In this document: one piece after another, positions 55,843 to 64,000 of the stretch | Layout: each line of letters begins with the position of its first letter | How positions within the stretch are numbered: position 1 is the stretch's first letter | Origin: Sulfobacillus thermosulfidooxidans DSM 9293 | GTDB taxonomy: Bacteria; Bacillota; Sulfobacillia; Sulfobacillales; Sulfobacillaceae | Direction of reading: 5' to 3' | Assembly: GCF_900176145.1 (NCBI RefSeq) | Contig: NZ_FWWY01000001.1 | Location: forward strand, 1,783,819-1,847,818 | DNA: 64,000 nt | Made by a program: the position numbers and the translations under genes | Notes under the pieces: model-generated | Seen by the model: the letters and a program-made list of their open reading frames with translations, nothing else | The model's database searches: none | Told to the model about the DNA's origin: nothing

Positions 55843-56859
55843 GTGCCCGATCCGATAGTCCATGTGATATGGATTAATGCAGGACTGAGCTGTGATGGTG
55901 ATTCCGTGGGTTTAACCGCGGCCACTCAGCCCAGCGTGGAAGATTTAGCACTGGGATATTTGCCGGGTGTGCCCAATGTTCGCTTTCACTGGCCCTTAGT
56001 CGATTATGACAATGGGGATGAACTCATGGCGTGGTGGTGGAAAGCCGCGAACGGTGAGCTCGATCCCTTTGTGTTAGTGGTTGAAGGCTCCATTCCCAAT
56101 GAGAAGATTCATGCCGAAGGATATTGGGCGGCCATGGGGAATAATCCCGAAACGGGTCAACCGATGACGACGAATGAATGGATTGACAAGTTGGCACCCA
56201 AAGCCTGGGCGGTTTTGGCCGCGGGAACCTGTGCCAGTTATGGCGGCATCCATGCTATGCAAGGCAATCCGACCGGTGCGATGGGAATTGCGGATTATTT
56301 GGGATGGAATTGGCGCTCTAAGGCTGGCGTTCCCATTGTGTGTGTGCCAGGCTGCCCCATCCAACCTGATAACCTCTCGGAAACGATTCTCTACCTCCTC
56401 TATCAAGCCGCAGGATCTGCTCCAATGATTCCCCTCGATGATCAATTACGGCCACAATGGCTGTTTGGACGAACGGTCCATCAAGGCTGTGACCGCGCGG
56501 GCTATTATGAGCAAGCTGACTTTGCGGCCGAATACGGTTCCCCCAAATGCATTGTCAAACTCGGATGTTGGGGACCCGTTGTCAATTGCAACGTGCCTAA
56601 ACGCGGATGGATGGCGGGCATTGGAGGTTGTCCCAATGTCGGAGGAATCTGCATCGGTTGTACCATGCCGGGTTTCCCGGATAAGTTTATGCCCTTCATG
56701 GATGAACCGCCCGGAGGCAAGATGTCGTCATCGGTCATCTCCCTCTACGGGAAATTATTCCGCAATTTGCGTTCTGTCACCAATGACACTTTAAATCATG
56801 AACCGTCTTGGCGACATGCTCGGGCTGAACTGACGACGGGATATCAAAAAGTATGGTAA
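55843..56859 (+). CDS. hhyS: [NiFe] hydrogenase small subunit, group 1h (actinobacterial-type)
   Basis: This 338-residue protein carries the electron-transfer clusters of an uptake hydrogenase. Visible ligand regions are LSCDGDSVGLTAATQPS, GTCASYGGIHAM, VCVPGCPIQPDNL, HQGCDRAGYYEQ, KLGCWGPVVNCNVPKRGW and GGICIGCTMPGFPDKFM. These wordings, especially CDGDS and the PGFPDKFMPF ending, are typical of group 1h enzymes, which oxidise hydrogen at atmospheric levels and tolerate oxygen. There is no Tat signal, so the enzyme should stay on the cytoplasmic side. GTG 55843 follows AAGGGGGGAC. The large subunit follows after 19 bp. Confidence 0.92.
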   Translation: MPDPIVHVIWINAGLSCDGDSVGLTAATQPSVEDLALGYLPGVPNVRFHWPLVDYDNGDELMAWWWKAANGELDPFVLVVEGSIPNEKIHAEGYWAAMGNNPETGQPMTTNEWIDKLAPKAWAVLAAGTCASYGGIHAMQGNPTGAMGIADYLGWNWRSKAGVPIVCVPGCPIQPDNLSETILYLLYQAAGSAPMIPLDDQLRPQWLFGRTVHQGCDRAGYYEQADFAAEYGSPKCIVKLGCWGPVVNCNVPKRGWMAGIGGCPNVGGICIGCTMPGFPDKFMPFMDEPPGGKMSSSVISLYGKLFRNLRSVTNDTLNHEPSWRHARAELTTGYQKVW

Positions 56860-56878: not shown

Positions 56879-58690
56879 TTGGCTACAACGGAAGACAAAG
56901 TAAGCAGTCAGCAGGCCACAAATAACTCGAAACTTGTCGAAATGGCATGGGATCCGATTACGCGAATTGTGGGCAGCTTAGGGATTTATACCAAAATCGA
57001 CTTTGAGAATCGTGAAGTGGTGGAATGTCATAGTACCTCGTCGATTTTTCGGGGTTATAGCATTTTCATGAAAGGCAAGGATCCCCGCGATGCGCATTTT
57101 ATCACCAGCCGTATTTGTGGTATTTGTGGGGACAACCATGCCACTTGCGCCGTCTATGCGCAAAATATGGCTTTCGGTGTCAAACCCCCATCGCTTGCTG
57201 AGTGGATTATCAATCTCGGTGAAGCGGCAGAATACATGTTTGACCACAATATCTTCCAAGAAAACTTGGTGGGTGTCGATTTTTGCGAGCAAATGGTGCG
57301 GGAAACCAATCCGAGCGTTTGGGCAAAAGCCCAAAAAACATCCGCTCCGCACGCGGACATTCACGGATACAAAACTATTGCCGACATTATGACGGCTCTT
57401 AATCCCTTTACCGGTGAGTTATACCGCGAGGCACTTCAGGTAAGTCGGTATACTCGGGAGATGTTTATCTTAATGGAAGGTCGGCATGTCCATCCGTCCA
57501 CGTTGTATCCCGGTGGTGTGGGGACTGTGCCGACCATCCAGTTATTTACCGACTACATGACGAGACTCATGAAATACATCGATTTCATGAAGAAAATGGT
57601 TCCTCTGCACGACGATCTCTTTGACTTTTTCTACGAGGCATTGCCCGGCTATGAGGCAGTCGGTCAACGCCGGATTTTGCTAGGCTGTTGGGGCTCCTTC
57701 CAAGATCCCAATGCCTGCGATTACGATTATAAGCACATGACCGACTGGGGCCGCAAGATGTTTGTGACGCCCGGAATTGTGGTCGACGGCAAGTTGATTA
57801 CCACAGATTTGGTCGAAATTAATCTGGGGATGCGCATTTTGTTGGGCTCTTCCTATTATGGCAGCTGGGAAAACGAAGAGCGCTTTGTGACCCATGATCC
57901 GTTAGGAAATCCTGTCGATAAAAATCACCCGTGGAACCAAACGACGATTCCCAAGCCGCAAAAACGCGACTTTAACAAGAACTACAGCTGGGTGATGTCC
58001 CCCCGGTGGTATGACAAATCTTCGGGAGATCATCTGGCATTAGACACAGGAGGCGGCGCCATTGCTCGCTTATGGGCCACAGCCTTGGCGGGATTGGTTG
58101 ACATGGGCACGGTGAAGGCGACCGGTCACTCGGTGCAGATTAATTTCCCCAAAACCGCGTCGTTTGGTGAAATGCAGCTCGAATGGAAGATTCCACAGTG
58201 GAGCAATGCGATTGAGCGTGACCGGGCCCGCACGTATTTCCAGGCCTATGCGGCAGCGGCTGCACTATACTTCTTAGACCAAGCCATCGCCGAAGTCCGG
58301 GCTGGTCACACTACAGTATGGGAACCCTTCAAAGTACCGGAAGAGGCTATTGGGTGTGGGTTCCATGAAGCCGTGCGCGGTGTCTTGTCGCACCATGTCG
58401 TCATCCGCGATGGAAAAATTGCGAACTACCATCCTTACCCCCCCACTCCGTGGAATGCGAATCCTCGGGACATTTATGGCACTCCGGGACCGTATGAAGA
58501 TGCTGTCCAAGGAACGCCAATTTTCGAAGAAAATGGTCCGGACTCGTTTAAAGGGATTGATATTATGCGTGCTGTGCGGAGTTTTGATCCCTGTTTGCCC
58601 TGTGGGGTGCATATGTATGTCGGCAACGGTAAAACCGTTGAAGTGAATCATTCGCCTACCTATGGAGTGGGTTGTGCCCCGGGAGAATAA
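56879..58690 (+). CDS. hhyL: [NiFe] hydrogenase large subunit, group 1h
   Basis: This 603-residue protein holds the Ni-Fe(CN)2CO site. The two ligand motifs are SRICGICGDNHATC near residue 80 and DPCLPCGVHMYVG near the C-terminus. Maturation normally removes the residues after the final His, here about 25 residues ending in GCAPGE, so a HyaD/HycI-type protease is needed; none is seen in this window. Start TTG 56879 has GAAGGGAGG about 10 bp upstream. A small hairpin (TAAAATCCC/GGGATTTTA, 58688-58708) begins at its stop codon. Confidence 0.94.
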   Translation: MATTEDKVSSQQATNNSKLVEMAWDPITRIVGSLGIYTKIDFENREVVECHSTSSIFRGYSIFMKGKDPRDAHFITSRICGICGDNHATCAVYAQNMAFGVKPPSLAEWIINLGEAAEYMFDHNIFQENLVGVDFCEQMVRETNPSVWAKAQKTSAPHADIHGYKTIADIMTALNPFTGELYREALQVSRYTREMFILMEGRHVHPSTLYPGGVGTVPTIQLFTDYMTRLMKYIDFMKKMVPLHDDLFDFFYEALPGYEAVGQRRILLGCWGSFQDPNACDYDYKHMTDWGRKMFVTPGIVVDGKLITTDLVEINLGMRILLGSSYYGSWENEERFVTHDPLGNPVDKNHPWNQTTIPKPQKRDFNKNYSWVMSPRWYDKSSGDHLALDTGGGAIARLWATALAGLVDMGTVKATGHSVQINFPKTASFGEMQLEWKIPQWSNAIERDRARTYFQAYAAAAALYFLDQAIAEVRAGHTTVWEPFKVPEEAIGCGFHEAVRGVLSHHVVIRDGKIANYHPYPPTPWNANPRDIYGTPGPYEDAVQGTPIFEENGPDSFKGIDIMRAVRSFDPCLPCGVHMYVGNGKTVEVNHSPTYGVGCAPGE

Positions 58691-58708
58691 AATCCCAGAG
58701 GGATTTTA
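58688..58708 (+). other. 9-bp hairpin at the end of the hydrogenase large-subunit gene
   Basis: TAAAATCCC and GGGATTTTA pair perfectly around an AGA loop. The first arm includes the stop codon. No T-run follows, so I read it as an mRNA processing or stability element between structural and maturation genes rather than a terminator. Confidence 0.45.
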
Positions 58709-58770
58709 ACGGTGAGCCCAAATGGTGAGGAGAAACCCTAGGGACATATCACGCAGAAGGAGGTGCGCAC

Positions 58771-58884
58771 ATGATCCAAATGATGTTCACGCTCGCATTT
58801 TTAGCGCTCGTGATATGGCTGGGAAAACTCATTTTGCAGTCGTTGCCGGATATGCAGCGTTATGTGCGAATGAGGAATATGTAA
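58771..58884 (+). CDS. 37-residue single-span membrane protein in the hydrogenase operon
   Basis: GAAGGAGGT precedes ATG 58771. The product has a hydrophobic N-terminal helix (FTLAFLALVIWLGKLIL) and a short basic tail, SLPDMQRYVRMRNM. Small one-helix proteins with a similar P-D-x-x-R-Y-x-R-x-R-x-M ending occur in actinobacteria, and I recall them near such hydrogenase genes, but I cannot verify this here. It could anchor the soluble hydrogenase to the membrane or link it to quinone reduction. Its size makes it easy to miss in automated annotation. Confidence 0.7.
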   Translation: MIQMMFTLAFLALVIWLGKLILQSLPDMQRYVRMRNM

Positions 58885-58926
58885 GGTTGTGAGGGTTGTC
58901 AAAGGCGGAGTTACGGAGGCGGGGCA

Positions 58927-61281
58927 ATGGAAGCATATCCCGAAGATCGCTGCATTGAAAGGCGGCATCTACGCATTAAAGGATTTGTTCAAGGCGTCGG
59001 ATTTCGGCCGTTTGTCTACCGGGAAGCTCAACACTTGGGACTTACCGGCTGGATTTACAATGATCATCAAGGGGTAAGTATTGAAGTTCAGGGGCCCTTA
59101 TGGGCACTCGAGCGTTTCCACGACCACTTGCTTTCCAAGACTCCGCCTTTAGCCCGTATTGACCAGATTGAGGAAGAGCGTGTCGCGATTTTGGTTGACG
59201 AAAAAGATTTTGTCATCCAGAAGAGCCTGCAAGGCAAAGACCCTGCCGCACTGGTGCGACCTGATGCCTGTGTGTGTGAAGAGTGTCTTGAGGAGATGCA
59301 TAATCCGAAAGATCGTCGTTACCGCTATCCTTTTATCAACTGCACGAATTGCGGACCTCGCTACACCATTATTCAAGGCGTTCCGTATGACCGGGCAATG
59401 ACCACAATGGCCCGTTTTGTGATGTGTCCGGATTGCCAACGTGAATATGACGATCCCTTGGATCGTCGCTTTCATGCCCAACCCAATGCCTGTCCACAGT
59501 GTGGTCCCCAAGTGTACTTTGAAAGAGGAAATGAAATCTCTCAAAATCCGTTTCACTTATGGACCGAGGCCATTTTGTCTGGCCAAATTGTTGCGGTTAA
59601 GGGATTAGGAGGCTACCACTTAGCCTGTAATCCTTTTGATGATCAGGCGGTAAAGCGTTTACGCCAGCTAAAGCGGCGTTCTGGGAAACCCTTCGCCGTG
59701 ATGTCCAAAGATCTTGAAGCGGTTCAGCAGTTATGCTATGTGAGCGGTAAAGAAAAAGCGTTATTAGAGTCCACCGAACGACCTATTGTCTTATTGACCC
59801 GCTTGCGTTCCGGGATTTTAAGCTCACAGGTGGCTGGCTTGTACCGCACTTTAGGGGTTATGCTTCCTTACACCCCCCTGCATGTCTTGTTGTTAGAAGC
59901 TTTACAAGACGCGTTGCCTTTACCCGTGGTCGTGATGACAAGTGGCAATCTGAGTGATGAGCCTATTGTCACCGATAATGATGAAGCCAAAGACATGCTA
60001 AAATCGGTGGCTGATGCCTTTGTCCATCATAATCGCCCAATTTACATCCGCTGTGACGATTCGATTGTCAAAATAGCTGCAGATAATCAGCCGCAACTCT
60101 TACGGCGTTCACGCGGATATGTGCCGGACATTATTGAAACGGCGCTGGAAGGTCCTCCACTTCTAGCCGTAGGCGGGGAACTCAAAAATACCTTTGCCTT
60201 TTATCAACAGGGGAAAGTCTATCTGAGTCATCATTTGGGTGATCTCGAGAATATGAAGGCTTATCAGGCCTTCCAAGAAGGCATTGCCCATTTCGAACGC
60301 CTTTATCATCTGAAAGCTGAATTCGTTGTGCATGATATGCATCCCGGCTATTTGTCGACGACCTTTGCCGAACAAATAGGGTTACCGACTTTGGCTGTGC
60401 AACATCATCATGCGCATGTTGCCAGTGTAATGATGGAGCATCACTTAGAGGGGCCAGTCATCGGTCTTGCTTTTGATGGTACGGGATATGGCCCGGACAA
60501 AACCATTTGGGGCGGTGAAGTACTACTCGCCACCTTATCCGGGTTTGAGCGCGTGGCTTCCTTAAAGCCCGTTCCTATGATTGGTGGGGACCGGGCGATT
60601 AAAGAACCGTGGCGCATGGCGTCAGCACTGCTCGCCCAAATCTTTTCCCGGGATAACTATCCAGAAGACCTCCCTTTAATTCAGAAGATTGGAGCGCCGT
60701 GGTGGCACATTGATGCGTTGGCCAGAAAAGTTGACTCCTCAATCTCTATCTTAACATCGAGCATGGGGCGTCTGTTTGATGCCGTGGCCGCGCTGATTGG
60801 ATTAACCCCTTTTGCCAGCTATGAAGGGGAAGCCGCGATTATGTGTGAAATGTTGGCGGGCGAAGGTAAGGCGTCCCCGTATCCCTATGAAATCCGAGAA
60901 GAAAGATCTGGATATTGGCAGATGGATCCAACACCTCTGATTAAAGATCTCCTAGCCGATATTTTTCGCGGGGAATCTCCTTCTGTCATGGCCTTGCGTT
61001 TTCATCATACGATTGCTGAGATGACAGCCTCTATGGCCTCTCTCGTCTACCGCCATTATGGCATCGATCACGTCGTGCTATCGGGTGGTGTATGGCAAAA
61101 TCAGCTCTTAACCCGCTTAACCTTAGACCAATTACATTCCAAGGGATTGAGAACTTTCCTCAATCACGTGGTTCCGCCCAATGACGGCGGATTGGCATTA
61201 GGACAAATTGGCATTGGGTGCAACATGGCTCAAGGATTAAAAAGTAATGAATTGCGCGATGTACAGAGGAGGAATGGGTGA
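58927..61281 (+). CDS. hypF: Carbamoyltransferase HypF (hydrogenase maturation)
   Basis: HypF makes the cyanide ligands of the [NiFe] site from carbamoyl phosphate and passes them to HypE. The 784-residue protein has the full order: acylphosphatase domain (GFVQGVGFRPFVYREAQHLG), two zinc-finger pairs (CVCEECLEEM, NCTNCGPRYT, MCPDCQREYDDPLDRRFHAQ, ACPQCG), YrdC-like domain (GLGGYHLACNPFDDQAVKRL), and the Kae1-like C-terminal domain (VQHHHAHVASVMMEHHLEG, LSGGVWQNQLLTRL). Its stop overlaps the hypC start. Start ATG 58927 follows GGAGGCGGGGC. Confidence 0.96.
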   Translation: MEAYPEDRCIERRHLRIKGFVQGVGFRPFVYREAQHLGLTGWIYNDHQGVSIEVQGPLWALERFHDHLLSKTPPLARIDQIEEERVAILVDEKDFVIQKSLQGKDPAALVRPDACVCEECLEEMHNPKDRRYRYPFINCTNCGPRYTIIQGVPYDRAMTTMARFVMCPDCQREYDDPLDRRFHAQPNACPQCGPQVYFERGNEISQNPFHLWTEAILSGQIVAVKGLGGYHLACNPFDDQAVKRLRQLKRRSGKPFAVMSKDLEAVQQLCYVSGKEKALLESTERPIVLLTRLRSGILSSQVAGLYRTLGVMLPYTPLHVLLLEALQDALPLPVVVMTSGNLSDEPIVTDNDEAKDMLKSVADAFVHHNRPIYIRCDDSIVKIAADNQPQLLRRSRGYVPDIIETALEGPPLLAVGGELKNTFAFYQQGKVYLSHHLGDLENMKAYQAFQEGIAHFERLYHLKAEFVVHDMHPGYLSTTFAEQIGLPTLAVQHHHAHVASVMMEHHLEGPVIGLAFDGTGYGPDKTIWGGEVLLATLSGFERVASLKPVPMIGGDRAIKEPWRMASALLAQIFSRDNYPEDLPLIQKIGAPWWHIDALARKVDSSISILTSSMGRLFDAVAALIGLTPFASYEGEAAIMCEMLAGEGKASPYPYEIREERSGYWQMDPTPLIKDLLADIFRGESPSVMALRFHHTIAEMTASMASLVYRHYGIDHVVLSGGVWQNQLLTRLTLDQLHSKGLRTFLNHVVPPNDGGLALGQIGIGCNMAQGLKSNELRDVQRRNG

Positions 61282-61553
61282 TGTGTTTAGCAATTCCCGG
61301 GCGGGTTACCGAGATTGTGGACCGAGAACGTGACATTGCCAAAGTAGATGTGACGGGGATTAAACGTAATGTCAGTATTACGCTGTTAAAGTCTTTAGGG
61401 ATTGAACCGGGAGACTGGGTTCTGGTTCACGTGGGATTTGCCATGAGCAAAATCGATGAGCAAGAGGCTCAAGAAACATTAGCCATGCTTCAAGAACTGG
61501 GCACGTCGCTCGATGATGAATTTGATTTGTGGGATACCTCTCAGATCGAATAG
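61281..61553 (+). CDS. hypC: Hydrogenase maturation chaperone HypC
   Basis: HypC carries the Fe(CN)2CO group with HypD and delivers it to the large subunit. The 90-residue protein starts MCLAIPGRVTEI; the N-terminal Cys after Met removal is essential, so ATG 61281 must be the start. GDWVLVHVGFAMSKIDEQEA is the conserved end of the beta barrel. AGAGGAGG lies upstream inside hypF. A second, divergent HypC-like protein is encoded at 62165. Confidence 0.95.
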   Translation: MCLAIPGRVTEIVDRERDIAKVDVTGIKRNVSITLLKSLGIEPGDWVLVHVGFAMSKIDEQEAQETLAMLQELGTSLDDEFDLWDTSQIE

Positions 61554-61583: not shown

Positions 61584-62168
61584 ATGATAACCGATCAGGA
61601 ATTAGACATGGTGGTGGCTAGGTACTTTGATGAGTCTGAGAGGATTGCCCAAGCCTTTTTTGACAAGGAATCCGAGCATATAGCCCAGGCATGTTATCAA
61701 ATGGCCCGGCGTTTTCATCAACAGGGGAGAATTTGGACATTTGGTGAGGGCTTTTGGACGACTGACGCTCAGCACGTTGCAGTCGAATTTGTGCATCCCG
61801 CTATCGTAGGGAATAAGGCGTTGCCCGGCATTTCCCTTAGCAATAACAATGCCTTAATTACTGGGTTCGATCCCGAGTGGAAGTACGCTTGGGGATTGAA
61901 ACGGTTAGCAAAACCGTGGGATATGGCGCTAGGTTTTTCCACAGATGGGCAAACCCCGTCTATTGTCAATGCACTGAGGGAAGCGCGTGAGCTGGGGATG
62001 TTGAGCTTGGGATTGTCAGGGCCCCCAGGATTTGACGAAACGGTGGCCGACTTTATTTTCACGGTGGACAGTACAGATCCGCTGCTGATTCAAGAGACCC
62101 ACGAACTGGTGAGTCATGTGTTGTACGAGTTGGTTCATGTCTTTTTGGAGCAGGAGGTGTTGTTATGA
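61584..62168 (+). CDS. SIS-domain protein (phosphoheptose isomerase-like), first copy
   Basis: This 194-residue protein is a single SIS domain: RRFHQQGRIWTFGEGFWTTD, VEFVHPAIVGNKALPG, and ALGFSTDGQTPSIVNALREA where GmhA-type proteins have the sugar-phosphate loop. It differs from true GmhA in the first loop (GEGFWTTDAQH in place of GNGGSAADAQH). It sits between hypC and a HypC-like gene and overlaps the latter by 4 bp, so it is part of the hydrogenase operon. A sugar isomerase is not required for the known Hyp pathway; it could bind a phospho-compound or another maturation intermediate. Confidence 0.82.
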   Translation: MITDQELDMVVARYFDESERIAQAFFDKESEHIAQACYQMARRFHQQGRIWTFGEGFWTTDAQHVAVEFVHPAIVGNKALPGISLSNNNALITGFDPEWKYAWGLKRLAKPWDMALGFSTDGQTPSIVNALREARELGMLSLGLSGPPGFDETVADFIFTVDSTDPLLIQETHELVSHVLYELVHVFLEQEVLL

Positions 62169-62422
62169 AGTCCTCTTCTCTGTTCTTGTCATTACAAGGA
62201 CTGCCACAATATGAGGCCCATTGTGTGACCTGTTCTGATGAATTGCAAAAATTTCACGTGCTGGCTATCGATTCCCTTCAATTGATGGCCCAGGTTAGGG
62301 GCGATACCGAAGAAACCTGGGTCGATATCACGTTTGTTCCCGACCTTGCGGTCGGAGATGACATCTTATGCCACGGGGGCACCGCGCTGGCCAAAGTGAC
62401 AGAAAGCGAGGACATCTCATGA
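62165..62422 (+). CDS. HypC/HupF-like protein lacking the N-terminal Cys
   Basis: This 85-residue protein resembles the HypC-like domain of HupF proteins: HCVTCSDELQKFHVLAIDSL, then AVGDDILCHGGTALAKVTES, where HupF has CITCSDEA and GDxVLVHAGxAI. It does not start with MC, the feature on which canonical HypC function depends. It may protect or stabilise the apo-hydrogenase in oxygen, as proposed for HupF, or carry a different intermediate. It overlaps the SIS genes on both sides by 4 bp. Confidence 0.75.
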   Translation: MKSSSLFLSLQGLPQYEAHCVTCSDELQKFHVLAIDSLQLMAQVRGDTEETWVDITFVPDLAVGDDILCHGGTALAKVTESEDIS

Positions 62423-63087
62423 CCCAGCCAGAGGCCGGTTCGGAATTTGACCAGTTGTTTTATCCCGGATTATTTGCGAGTCCCAAGGCCCCGGCGAATT
62501 TAGACGATGTGTTGCACCAAGTCACGGTATCTACCCAAAAAAAGTGCCAGGAGACCATAGCTTTACGTCGTCAAATTTATCAAAGTGCCCACGCTCAACT
62601 GGTTGCGGCCGCTAAAGACATGGCAGCCTGTTTTGCTCAAGGAGGCATGTTGCTCGCCATGGGCAATGGAGGAAGCAGTACGGATTGTCAAGATCTGGTG
62701 GCCGATTTTATGGATCTAAATCTCTCTGTGCCGGTATTGGCATTGACCCATGACGTTGCCGCCGTTACCGCCATTGCCAACGACGTGGGCTTTGATAATG
62801 TCTTTGTCCGCCAAGTGATTGCGTTGGGGAAAGCCGGGGATATCGCCATAGGGTTTTCCACCAGTGGGAACTCCGAAAATGTCATTTTAGGTCTCAACCA
62901 AGCCAAACGGCAAGGCCTCTTAACCATTGGAATTTCGGGGTATGATGGCGGAAAACTTGCCAAGAATGCGGATATCGACTACTGCTTTATCGCCCATAAC
63001 GAACACACACCGCGTATCCAAGAGGGACAAGCGACGATTGCCCATGTTCTCGTCCGGCTGGTGGAAGCCCTCTTAACATCCAGGTAA
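62419..63087 (+). CDS. SIS-domain protein (GmhA-like), second copy
   Basis: This 222-residue protein is closer to GmhA sedoheptulose-7-phosphate isomerase: MGNGGSSTDCQDLVADFMDL, AIGFSTSGNSENVILGLNQA, and HTPRIQEGQATIAHVLVRLV with the Glu and His of the GmhA active site. The first 50 residues are an extra helical region. ATG 62419 overlaps the stop of the HypC-like gene. hypD follows 26 bp downstream. Two SIS genes inside a hyp operon suggest that the products pair with each other or with maturation factors. Confidence 0.85.
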   Translation: MTQPEAGSEFDQLFYPGLFASPKAPANLDDVLHQVTVSTQKKCQETIALRRQIYQSAHAQLVAAAKDMAACFAQGGMLLAMGNGGSSTDCQDLVADFMDLNLSVPVLALTHDVAAVTAIANDVGFDNVFVRQVIALGKAGDIAIGFSTSGNSENVILGLNQAKRQGLLTIGISGYDGGKLAKNADIDYCFIAHNEHTPRIQEGQATIAHVLVRLVEALLTSR

Positions 63088-63113: not shown

Positions 63114-64000
63114 ATGCAATTTATTGATGAATATCGAGACGAAGAATTATCGAAAAAAACCGCCAGTGAAATTGCCCGCTTGGCCCACGGTCGGGATATC
63201 AAGATTATGGAAGTTTGTGGCGGCCATACACACACTATTTTTAAACACGGCATTGAAGATTTGTTGCCATCCAACGTCGACTTAGTGCATGGCCCAGGAT
63301 GCCCGGTTTGTGTTCTACCGATGGGTCGGGTCGATGATGCCATCGCCATTGCTCGCCAACCCGGCGTTATTTTTACCACGTTTGGCGATATGATGCGGGT
63401 TCCGGGCTCCAATGGCAGTCTTCTTGATATCAAGGCGGATGGTGCAGATGTCCGTTTTGTCTACTCGCCTCTGGATGCGCTGAAAGTCGCTCAACAGAAT
63501 CCTGACAAAGAGGTTGTCTTCTTTGCCGTGGGCATGGAAACAACGGCACCCTCGACGGCAGCCACGTTATTACGCGCCAAAGCTGAAGGCATTAAGAACT
63601 TTTCGGTATTTTGTAATCATGTTTTGATTATCCCGGCGTTAAAATCCCTGCTCGATTCCCCTGATCTCCGCCTTGATGGATTCCTAGGTCCAGGACATGT
63701 CAGCATGGTGGTGGGCATGCGCCCGTATGAATTTGTGGCGCGGGATTACCACAAGCCCGTGGTCATCGCCGGCTTTGAACCATTAGATATTATCCAATCG
63801 ATTTATATGGTGGTCAAACAAATCGCCGAAGGACGGGCTGAAGTAGAAAACCAGTATACGCGGGTGGTGCGTAAAGAAGGCAATGTCATGGCCCAAAAAG
63901 CGATGGCCGAGACCATGGAACTTCGACCGTTTTTTGAATGGCGAGGTCTTGGGTTCATTAACTACAGTGCATTTCGCTTGCGGGATGCATTTCGTGACTG
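63114..64000 (+). CDS. hypD: Hydrogenase maturation factor HypD (cut by the window end)
   Basis: HypD is the iron-sulfur scaffold on which, with HypC, the Fe(CN)2CO group is built. The frame is open from ATG 63114 to the window end, about 295 of the usual 370 residues. Conserved parts are IMEVCGGHTHTIFKHGI, VHGPGCPVCVLPMGR, TTFGDMMRVPGS, ETTAPSTAATLL and EWRGLGFINYSAFRLR. AAGGGAG lies upstream. The C-terminal Cys cluster, hypE, hypA and hypB are not in the window. Confidence 0.95.
   Translation, partial: MQFIDEYRDEELSKKTASEIARLAHGRDIKIMEVCGGHTHTIFKHGIEDLLPSNVDLVHGPGCPVCVLPMGRVDDAIAIARQPGVIFTTFGDMMRVPGSNGSLLDIKADGADVRFVYSPLDALKVAQQNPDKEVVFFAVGMETTAPSTAATLLRAKAEGIKNFSVFCNHVLIIPALKSLLDSPDLRLDGFLGPGHVSMVVGMRPYEFVARDYHKPVVIAGFEPLDIIQSIYMVVKQIAEGRAEVENQYTRVVRKEGNVMAQKAMAETMELRPFFEWRGLGFINYSAFRLRDAFRD

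Follow-up and report, generated by a model that had tools for sequence, protein, structure and literature searches.

The window, the 64,000-nucleotide stretch of Sulfobacillus thermosulfidooxidans DSM 9293 DNA that was analysed, ends within a cluster of hydrogenase genes. The following features were assigned in the window and, for the last line, beyond it:

55843..56859 (+): hhyS, group 1h [NiFe] hydrogenase small subunit, 338 aa
56879..58690 (+): hhyL, group 1h [NiFe] hydrogenase large subunit, 603 aa
58757..58765 (+): Shine-Dalgarno sequence AAGGAGGTG, perfect, 5 nt upstream of the ATG, identical in congener G003
58771..58884 (+): DUF6893 micro-protein gene, 37 aa, assigned by translation, Pfam match and codon comparison
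58927..61281 (+): hypF carbamoyltransferase
61278..61553 (+): hypC
61584..63087 (+): SIS-domain ORF, HypC-like ORF and SIS-domain ORF of the maturation cluster
63114..63998 (+): hypD, extending past the window end
L098:12535-13425 (window genome): NifU-Rieske protein, HhyE type

Beyond the window (L098), the cluster continues with hypE, hypA, hypB, the NifU-Rieske gene, DUF5947, DUF6084, a gene for a 337-aa protein and the HycI protease gene. The window HhyL is 82.6% identical to the group 1h large subunit of C. necator, which also provides the sole close HhyL structure in the PDB (5aa5). No transmembrane segment was predicted in HhyS or HhyL, residues 1-40 of HhyS contain no RR, and a cytochrome b gene was not seen among the cluster's annotated genes. 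This agrees with the earlier note, in which the enzyme had been described as a hydrogenase without a cytochrome subunit or Tat signal. Besides the 37-aa protein, the only TM-like product of the cluster was a 482-aa permease-like ORF (..LTLPDLSSLSISSVAPLFS..) at the cluster end, found at L098:17757-19205 in G000 and at L100:9572-10993 in G035. Upstream of it lies an ORF of 385 or 356 aa, which had no Pfam match in G000.

A selected micro-protein gene between hhyL and hypF

The frame at 58771-58884 (+) encodes the 37-residue product MIQMMFTLAFLALVIWLGKLILQSLPDMQRYVRMRNM*. It starts 80 nt after the hhyL stop (58690) and ends 42 nt before the hypF start (58927); terminator-like and promoter-like sites were looked for in the hhyL-hypF interval and none was found. 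The location between the large subunit gene and hypF, and the strong ribosome binding site claimed for the frame (AAGGAGGTG, 5 nt before the ATG), were thus as previously described. A short inverted repeat is present at the hhyL stop (58690-58708; AAAATCCC-AGA-GGGATTTT) and is absent from G003. An overlapping 56-aa frame (58722-58892) was considered as a gene and rejected, having no family match in Pfam or NCBIfam.

In a Pfam scan, PF21833 (DUF6893) matched the window protein at 50.4 bits (E 2.2e-13) over the entire profile (1-32 of 32), the curated cut-off being 24.6 bits, and no other Pfam family matched. A scan against NCBIfam gave no match. The micro-protein had been called overlooked; this holds for NCBIfam, which has no such family, and fails for Pfam, in which the family already existed and of which the window protein is an ordinary full-length member, with one helix and a PDxxRYxxxRxM tail. 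The genome of the window carries a single DUF6893 copy, and none of 14 control genomes had a match over the cut-off.

Lack of conservation of the frame in related genomes, or of a synonymous pattern of change, had been named as the result that would mark it as a chance frame. This comparison was made with G003, in which the frame was conserved and the protein 100% identical. The two genes differ at eight codons (stop included), and all eight differences are synonymous, an outcome with a chance of ∼1.5e-5 without selection. The ribosome binding site and its spacing from the ATG were also conserved in G003, and the flanking spacers carried indels. In the comparison with G035 (65% amino-acid identity), differences fell at codon positions 1, 2 and 3 in the numbers 15, 2 and 23. 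A Shine-Dalgarno-like sequence was present upstream of 16 of the 17 homologs inspected. We conclude that 58771-58884 is a genuine gene under selection. That it is instead a chance or decayed frame devoid of function might be argued from its shortness, such frames being often missed, and from its being unlisted in three plasmid records; given the 50-bit Pfam match, the exclusively synonymous codon changes, the conserved ribosome binding site and a C-terminal motif near-invariant across at least five phyla, we regard this as virtually untenable.

The hydrophobic helix and the C-terminal motif

The micro-protein had been described as one hydrophobic helix with a basic tail, and analysis of the product confirmed this: a single hydrophobic segment was found (KD19 maximum 2.27), and the C-tail carries a net charge of +2. 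A short N-terminus is followed by a hydrophobic helix at about residues 4-23 and by a basic C-terminal motif, SLPDMQRYVRMRNM, running up to the stop. AlphaFold2, supplied with an alignment of 30 members (A1), 28 of which are matched by PF21833, predicted a single helix spanning residues 2-36 (mean pLDDT 91.4). No relative of DUF6893 was found among the solved structures of the PDB.

The single hydrophobic segment of the window protein is followed at the C-terminal end by PD-x-x-RY-x5-M. Among 79 distinct homologs, the arginine (R-8), the tyrosine (Y-7) and the terminal methionine of the motif D-x-x-R-Y-x5-M-stop were each present in 78, D-11 was present in 72, and the stop codon directly followed the methionine in 78. 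Across all loci, 31,938 stop-terminated frames were searched for the pattern [DE]xxRYx5M-stop; 123 matched, and all 123 were of the hydrophobic-helix type. The helix varies freely in sequence among the 79 homologs and the tail is near-invariant; strict conservation confined to the C-terminal end in this way is the pattern of a docking peptide. The C-tail carries a mean net charge of +2.5 (79 homologs), as compared with N-terminal stretches mostly between -1 and +3, with one at +7 (30 members). This charge distribution suggests that the C-terminus is on the cytoplasmic side.

Several variants of the protein were encountered. Divergent DUF6893-like proteins are encoded at L159:6127-6420(+) and L160:4738-4959 (reverse-complement coordinates), with tails LPSLRREARIWRM and FPGLVREVRIWRM, respectively, followed by an extension, so that in that lineage the protein does not have to end at the methionine. 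In four acidobacterial loci (L028, L034, L046 and L186), an insert of ∼25 residues separates the membrane helix from the C-terminal motif, and a single cluster in Edaphobacter (L186) carries both an insert-bearing and a short form.

Co-occurrence of DUF6893 with the group 1h large subunit

With the window HhyL as bait, 80 group-1h-type loci were fetched from Pseudomonadota, Acidobacteriota, Chloroflexota, Verrucomicrobiota, Planctomycetota and Actinomycetota. When genomes with a group 1h enzyme were searched whole, 45 of 45 gave a PF21833 hit at E<=1 and 34 of 45 exceeded the cut-off; at the same lax threshold 6 of the 14 control genomes also matched, as compared with none over the cut-off. 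Apparent misses were mostly accounted for by loci ending too early, by longer upstream starts and by copies lying further along.

The converse association was assessed in sets of genomes that were not selected for hydrogenases, save for the genome at the centre of each phylum set (G074, G073 and G095), which had been picked as hydrogenase-bearing. HhyL was scored as group 1h-like at an identity line of 65%, which was drawn after the hits were known and is not a HydDB classification. The numbers of genomes with both / DUF6893 only / HhyL only / neither were:

Order of the window (61 genomes): 3 / 0 / 0 / 58; Fisher P 3e-5
Acidobacteriota (149 genomes): 6 / 0 / 1 / 142; P = 5e-10
Verrucomicrobiota (194 genomes): 3 / 0 / 0 / 191
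Actinomycetota: 18 / 7 / 12 / 259; P = 1e-15

The three genomes of the window's order with both genes were G000, G003 and G035 (HhyL identity 89-100%). The lone acidobacterial HhyL without DUF6893 (G463) is 430 bases from a contig end. Among the 12 actinobacterial genomes with HhyL only, two (G233 and G276) hold the divergent form with tail LPSLRREARIWRM and extension and several consist of contig fragments; DUF6893 appears to be missing from four whose HhyL is only 65-68% identical. The latter represent a clade of HhyL 65-68% identical to that of the window, with no detectable DUF6893 at L161, L162, L163 and L164 (G205, G229, G208 and G369); in L162, hypA directly follows HycI. This clade may form a further subgroup (1l?) that is linked to the membrane in another way.

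Most of the seven actinobacterial genomes with DUF6893 and no detected HhyL retained parts of a hydrogenase cluster. G255 has a decayed hhy operon in which a truncated hhyS lies beside the DUF6893 gene, G395 and G321 have pieces of an hhy-type operon, and G300 has a HycI-DUF6893-HypF cluster. At L147:7281-7912, hhyS survives only in its first part and hhyL is lost, with DUF6893, hypC, hypF and hypD remaining; this is a probable decayed hhy operon. In G319 and G367 the hits were weak and fell inside long frames (795 aa in G319). G310 has a second DUF6893 copy, beside hypF/hypC/hypD. Of the copies examined in this way, the only ones left without a tie to a hydrogenase were extra copies in the actinobacterial genomes G294 and G197, at L150:2152-2253(+), L155:4042-4143(-) and L148:2265-2564(+), which have no recognised hydrogenase gene beside them. 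Two of these three share the variant tail PDFQRYxQLRDM, and a second use for the same tail is possible.

The near-obligate co-occurrence of the two genes supports a functional tie between DUF6893 and the group 1h hydrogenase in several phyla, also where the two genes are not neighbours; DUF6893 accompanies these enzymes in at least five phyla. The family itself was already known; what this analysis adds is its link to group 1h across phyla, together with the C-terminal motif. DUF6893 has no assigned function, and in the open-access literature, outside which most subscription journals and preprints lie, we found no paper on the family and none reporting either the group 1h link or the strict C-terminal motif.

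Candidate roles at the membrane

Among the enzymes by which soils take up atmospheric H2, group 1h hydrogenases are regarded as a main one. How they are coupled to the respiratory chain without a membrane segment, a cytochrome or an export signal is an open question (PMC6883350, PMC7174314, PMC13332983), and according to a 2026 paper no anchoring subunit of the class has been identified (PMC13332983). Our leading hypothesis, towards which we lean, is that DUF6893 is a single-span membrane micro-subunit that tethers the group 1h hydrogenase. We infer an orientation, a docking and a tethering step, and an effect on electron transfer and affinity, as follows. The hydrophobic helix would sit in the cytoplasmic membrane with the basic C-terminus facing the cytoplasm, and the C-terminal peptide P-D-x-x-R-Y-x-[KR]-[IML]-[RS]-x-M-COOH would dock onto HhyS-HhyL, or onto an Fe-S partner, perhaps HhyE. 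Docking would keep the otherwise soluble HhyS-HhyL at the membrane, where the enzyme could pass electrons to the quinone pool and oxidise trace hydrogen. Of the membrane link proposed in the earlier note, the existence of a real, selected single-span protein tied to the group 1h enzyme in several phyla has thus stood; binding and tethering are put forward here as a hypothesis.

Besides the selection on the gene, its co-occurrence with HhyL and the C-terminal motif, two further observations favour an anchor: no other transmembrane protein is predicted among the hydrogenase genes proper, the permease-like ORF at the cluster end being the exception, and DUF6893 changes place and yet accompanies the enzyme. 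The gene lies directly after hhyL in the window, G003 and G035, and upstream of hhyS in Verrucomicrobiota. Its commonest position, in most genomes, is after the HycI protease; in most fetched loci the frame is found 3.5-4.5 kb downstream, after the genes for a NifU-like protein, DUF5947, DUF6084, a 340-500-aa protein and HycI. It follows hypB and ends the hyp cluster in Edaphobacter-type genomes, and in two Acidobacteriota (G409 and G483) it lies away from any hydrogenase gene seen. A passive hitch-hiker would hardly be expected to be retained through these moves solely alongside the enzyme.

That in most genomes the gene is among the maturation genes (protease, hypA, hypF) and not adjacent to hhySL counts against an anchor, and makes an assembly factor the main rival. 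DUF6893 would then be a membrane-bound maturation protein, absent from the finished enzyme, that brings HycI, HypF, HypA or immature HhyL/HhyS to the membrane during metal-centre insertion. Its usual place directly after HycI and before hypA/hypF, its closing of the hyp cluster after hypB and the G310 copy beside hypF/hypC/hypD are consistent with such a role, as are the two gel bands of the purified Methylacidiphilum fumariolicum SolV enzyme (PMC7174314), though a 4-kDa protein would be missed there. We nevertheless judge it rather unlikely, since the gene adjoins hhyL or hhyS in the window, G003, G035 and Verrucomicrobiota, and HycI and Hyp proteins work without DUF6893 in other hydrogenase groups. 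Hyp maturation is not known to require a membrane.

Published work on SolV, together with a genome taken for it, also speaks for tethering. The SolV group 1h enzyme lacks both a TM helix and a signal peptide, hydrogenase activity is found mostly in the detergent-solubilised membrane fraction, and an anchor is lacking in its description (PMC7174314). The Km is 140 nM on membranes as compared with 300 nM for the purified enzyme, which shows two gel bands only, and the genes for the Fe-S protein (HhyE) proposed elsewhere are reported absent (PMC7174314). Genome G589 is almost certainly that of SolV by inference, its order hhyS, hhyL, protease fitting the published MfumV2_978-980 (PMC5364354). Directly upstream of hhyS, G589 encodes a protein ending ...MKLWRYLFLILFAWVIVAIVIPSFPGFVRYLRIRQM, a divergent member that matched alignment A1 at E 5e-4 and fell below a PF21833 match in the Pfam scan. 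No DUF5947 was found in G589, as compared with its presence in 7 of 9 genomes tested; G589 and G699 have a trimmed gene set in which DUF6893 is retained. In a further-reaching proposal, which we think unlikely, DUF6893 would be an obligate third subunit whose C-terminal peptide inserts into the enzyme, tethers it and tunes its high affinity. If so, the membrane-dependent affinity reported for this enzyme class would rest on a micro-protein that purifications to date have lost or failed to reveal.

The group 1h enzyme of C. necator has been isolated from the cytoplasm and has low affinity, as cited in PMC7174314. An anchor role predicts that DUF6893 is missing from C. necator, where the enzyme is soluble, and this prediction failed: pHG1 carries a clear homolog, MKGFLKYLVLPALVVALLANIKDIRRYIRIRSM, between the protease gene and hypF. 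This counts against an anchor, as do the extra copies in G294 and G197 and the 65-68% HhyL clade without DUF6893. Weak binding lost on purification, or the absence of another partner, could explain the C. necator case. In an AlphaFold2 model of DUF6893, HhyS and HhyL from L044, the three genes, which share one frame by chance, were read through as one chain with stops read as G. The alignment was shallow and homogeneous, and the fusion model (mean pLDDT 43, pTM 0.38) was uninformative on binding.

Anchoring might also be secondary to a part in electron transfer or quinone access, or to that of a supercomplex adaptor, with DUF6893 as the connection from the hydrogenase, or from HhyE, to either the quinone pool or complex III/oxidase. 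Group 1h clusters are without cytochrome b (PMC6883350), membrane association raises the H2 affinity of the SolV enzyme (PMC7174314), and a quinone or docking site could be lined by the invariant residues R, Y and Met, which lie close to the membrane surface. However, with 37 residues and no Cys, His or cofactor motif, the protein cannot itself carry electrons, and no tie to oxidases or complex III was found in our analysis, so that this role appears distinctly improbable.

A tethering DUF6893 would resemble several known systems in part. HucM, which forms the membrane stalk of Huc, a group 2a hydrogenase, passes menaquinone (PMC10017518). Like it, DUF6893 is proposed to be a membrane component that takes no part in catalysis and is dedicated to a high-affinity hydrogenase lacking a cytochrome b subunit; it is set apart by size and architecture, HucM being a stalk-builder and DUF6893 a protein of ∼37 aa with one helix and a 13-residue tail. 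The proposed anchoring role is shared with the cytochrome b anchors HupC, HoxZ and HynC and with the C-terminal helix of group 1a-1d small subunits. The former are multi-span haem proteins and the latter is a tail anchor, and their enzymes are Tat-exported. In contrast, DUF6893 has one helix and no His or haem ligand, and its enzyme is cytoplasmic. HhyE, a NifU/Rieske-type Fe-S protein, has been proposed as the link between Hhy and the respiratory chain (PMC6883350). It is encoded in the same clusters as DUF6893, but is a soluble Fe-S protein and is reported absent from SolV (PMC7174314), whereas G589 retains DUF6893.

With one conserved micro-gene that follows the enzyme from phylum to phylum, the coupling question becomes experimentally testable. 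Should DUF6893 prove to be an anchor, it would represent a new variant of hydrogenase membrane subunit, purified or heterologous group 1h enzymes may be incomplete, and it would be a gene to add when building the enzyme into other hosts.

The public records for L165, L166 and L167, whose gene table is known to be incomplete, all leave the DUF6893 gene beside the protease unlisted. In the same records HhyS (L165:12854-13909, L166:5863-6942 and L167:5866-6927) is named 'hydrogenase expression protein HypE'.
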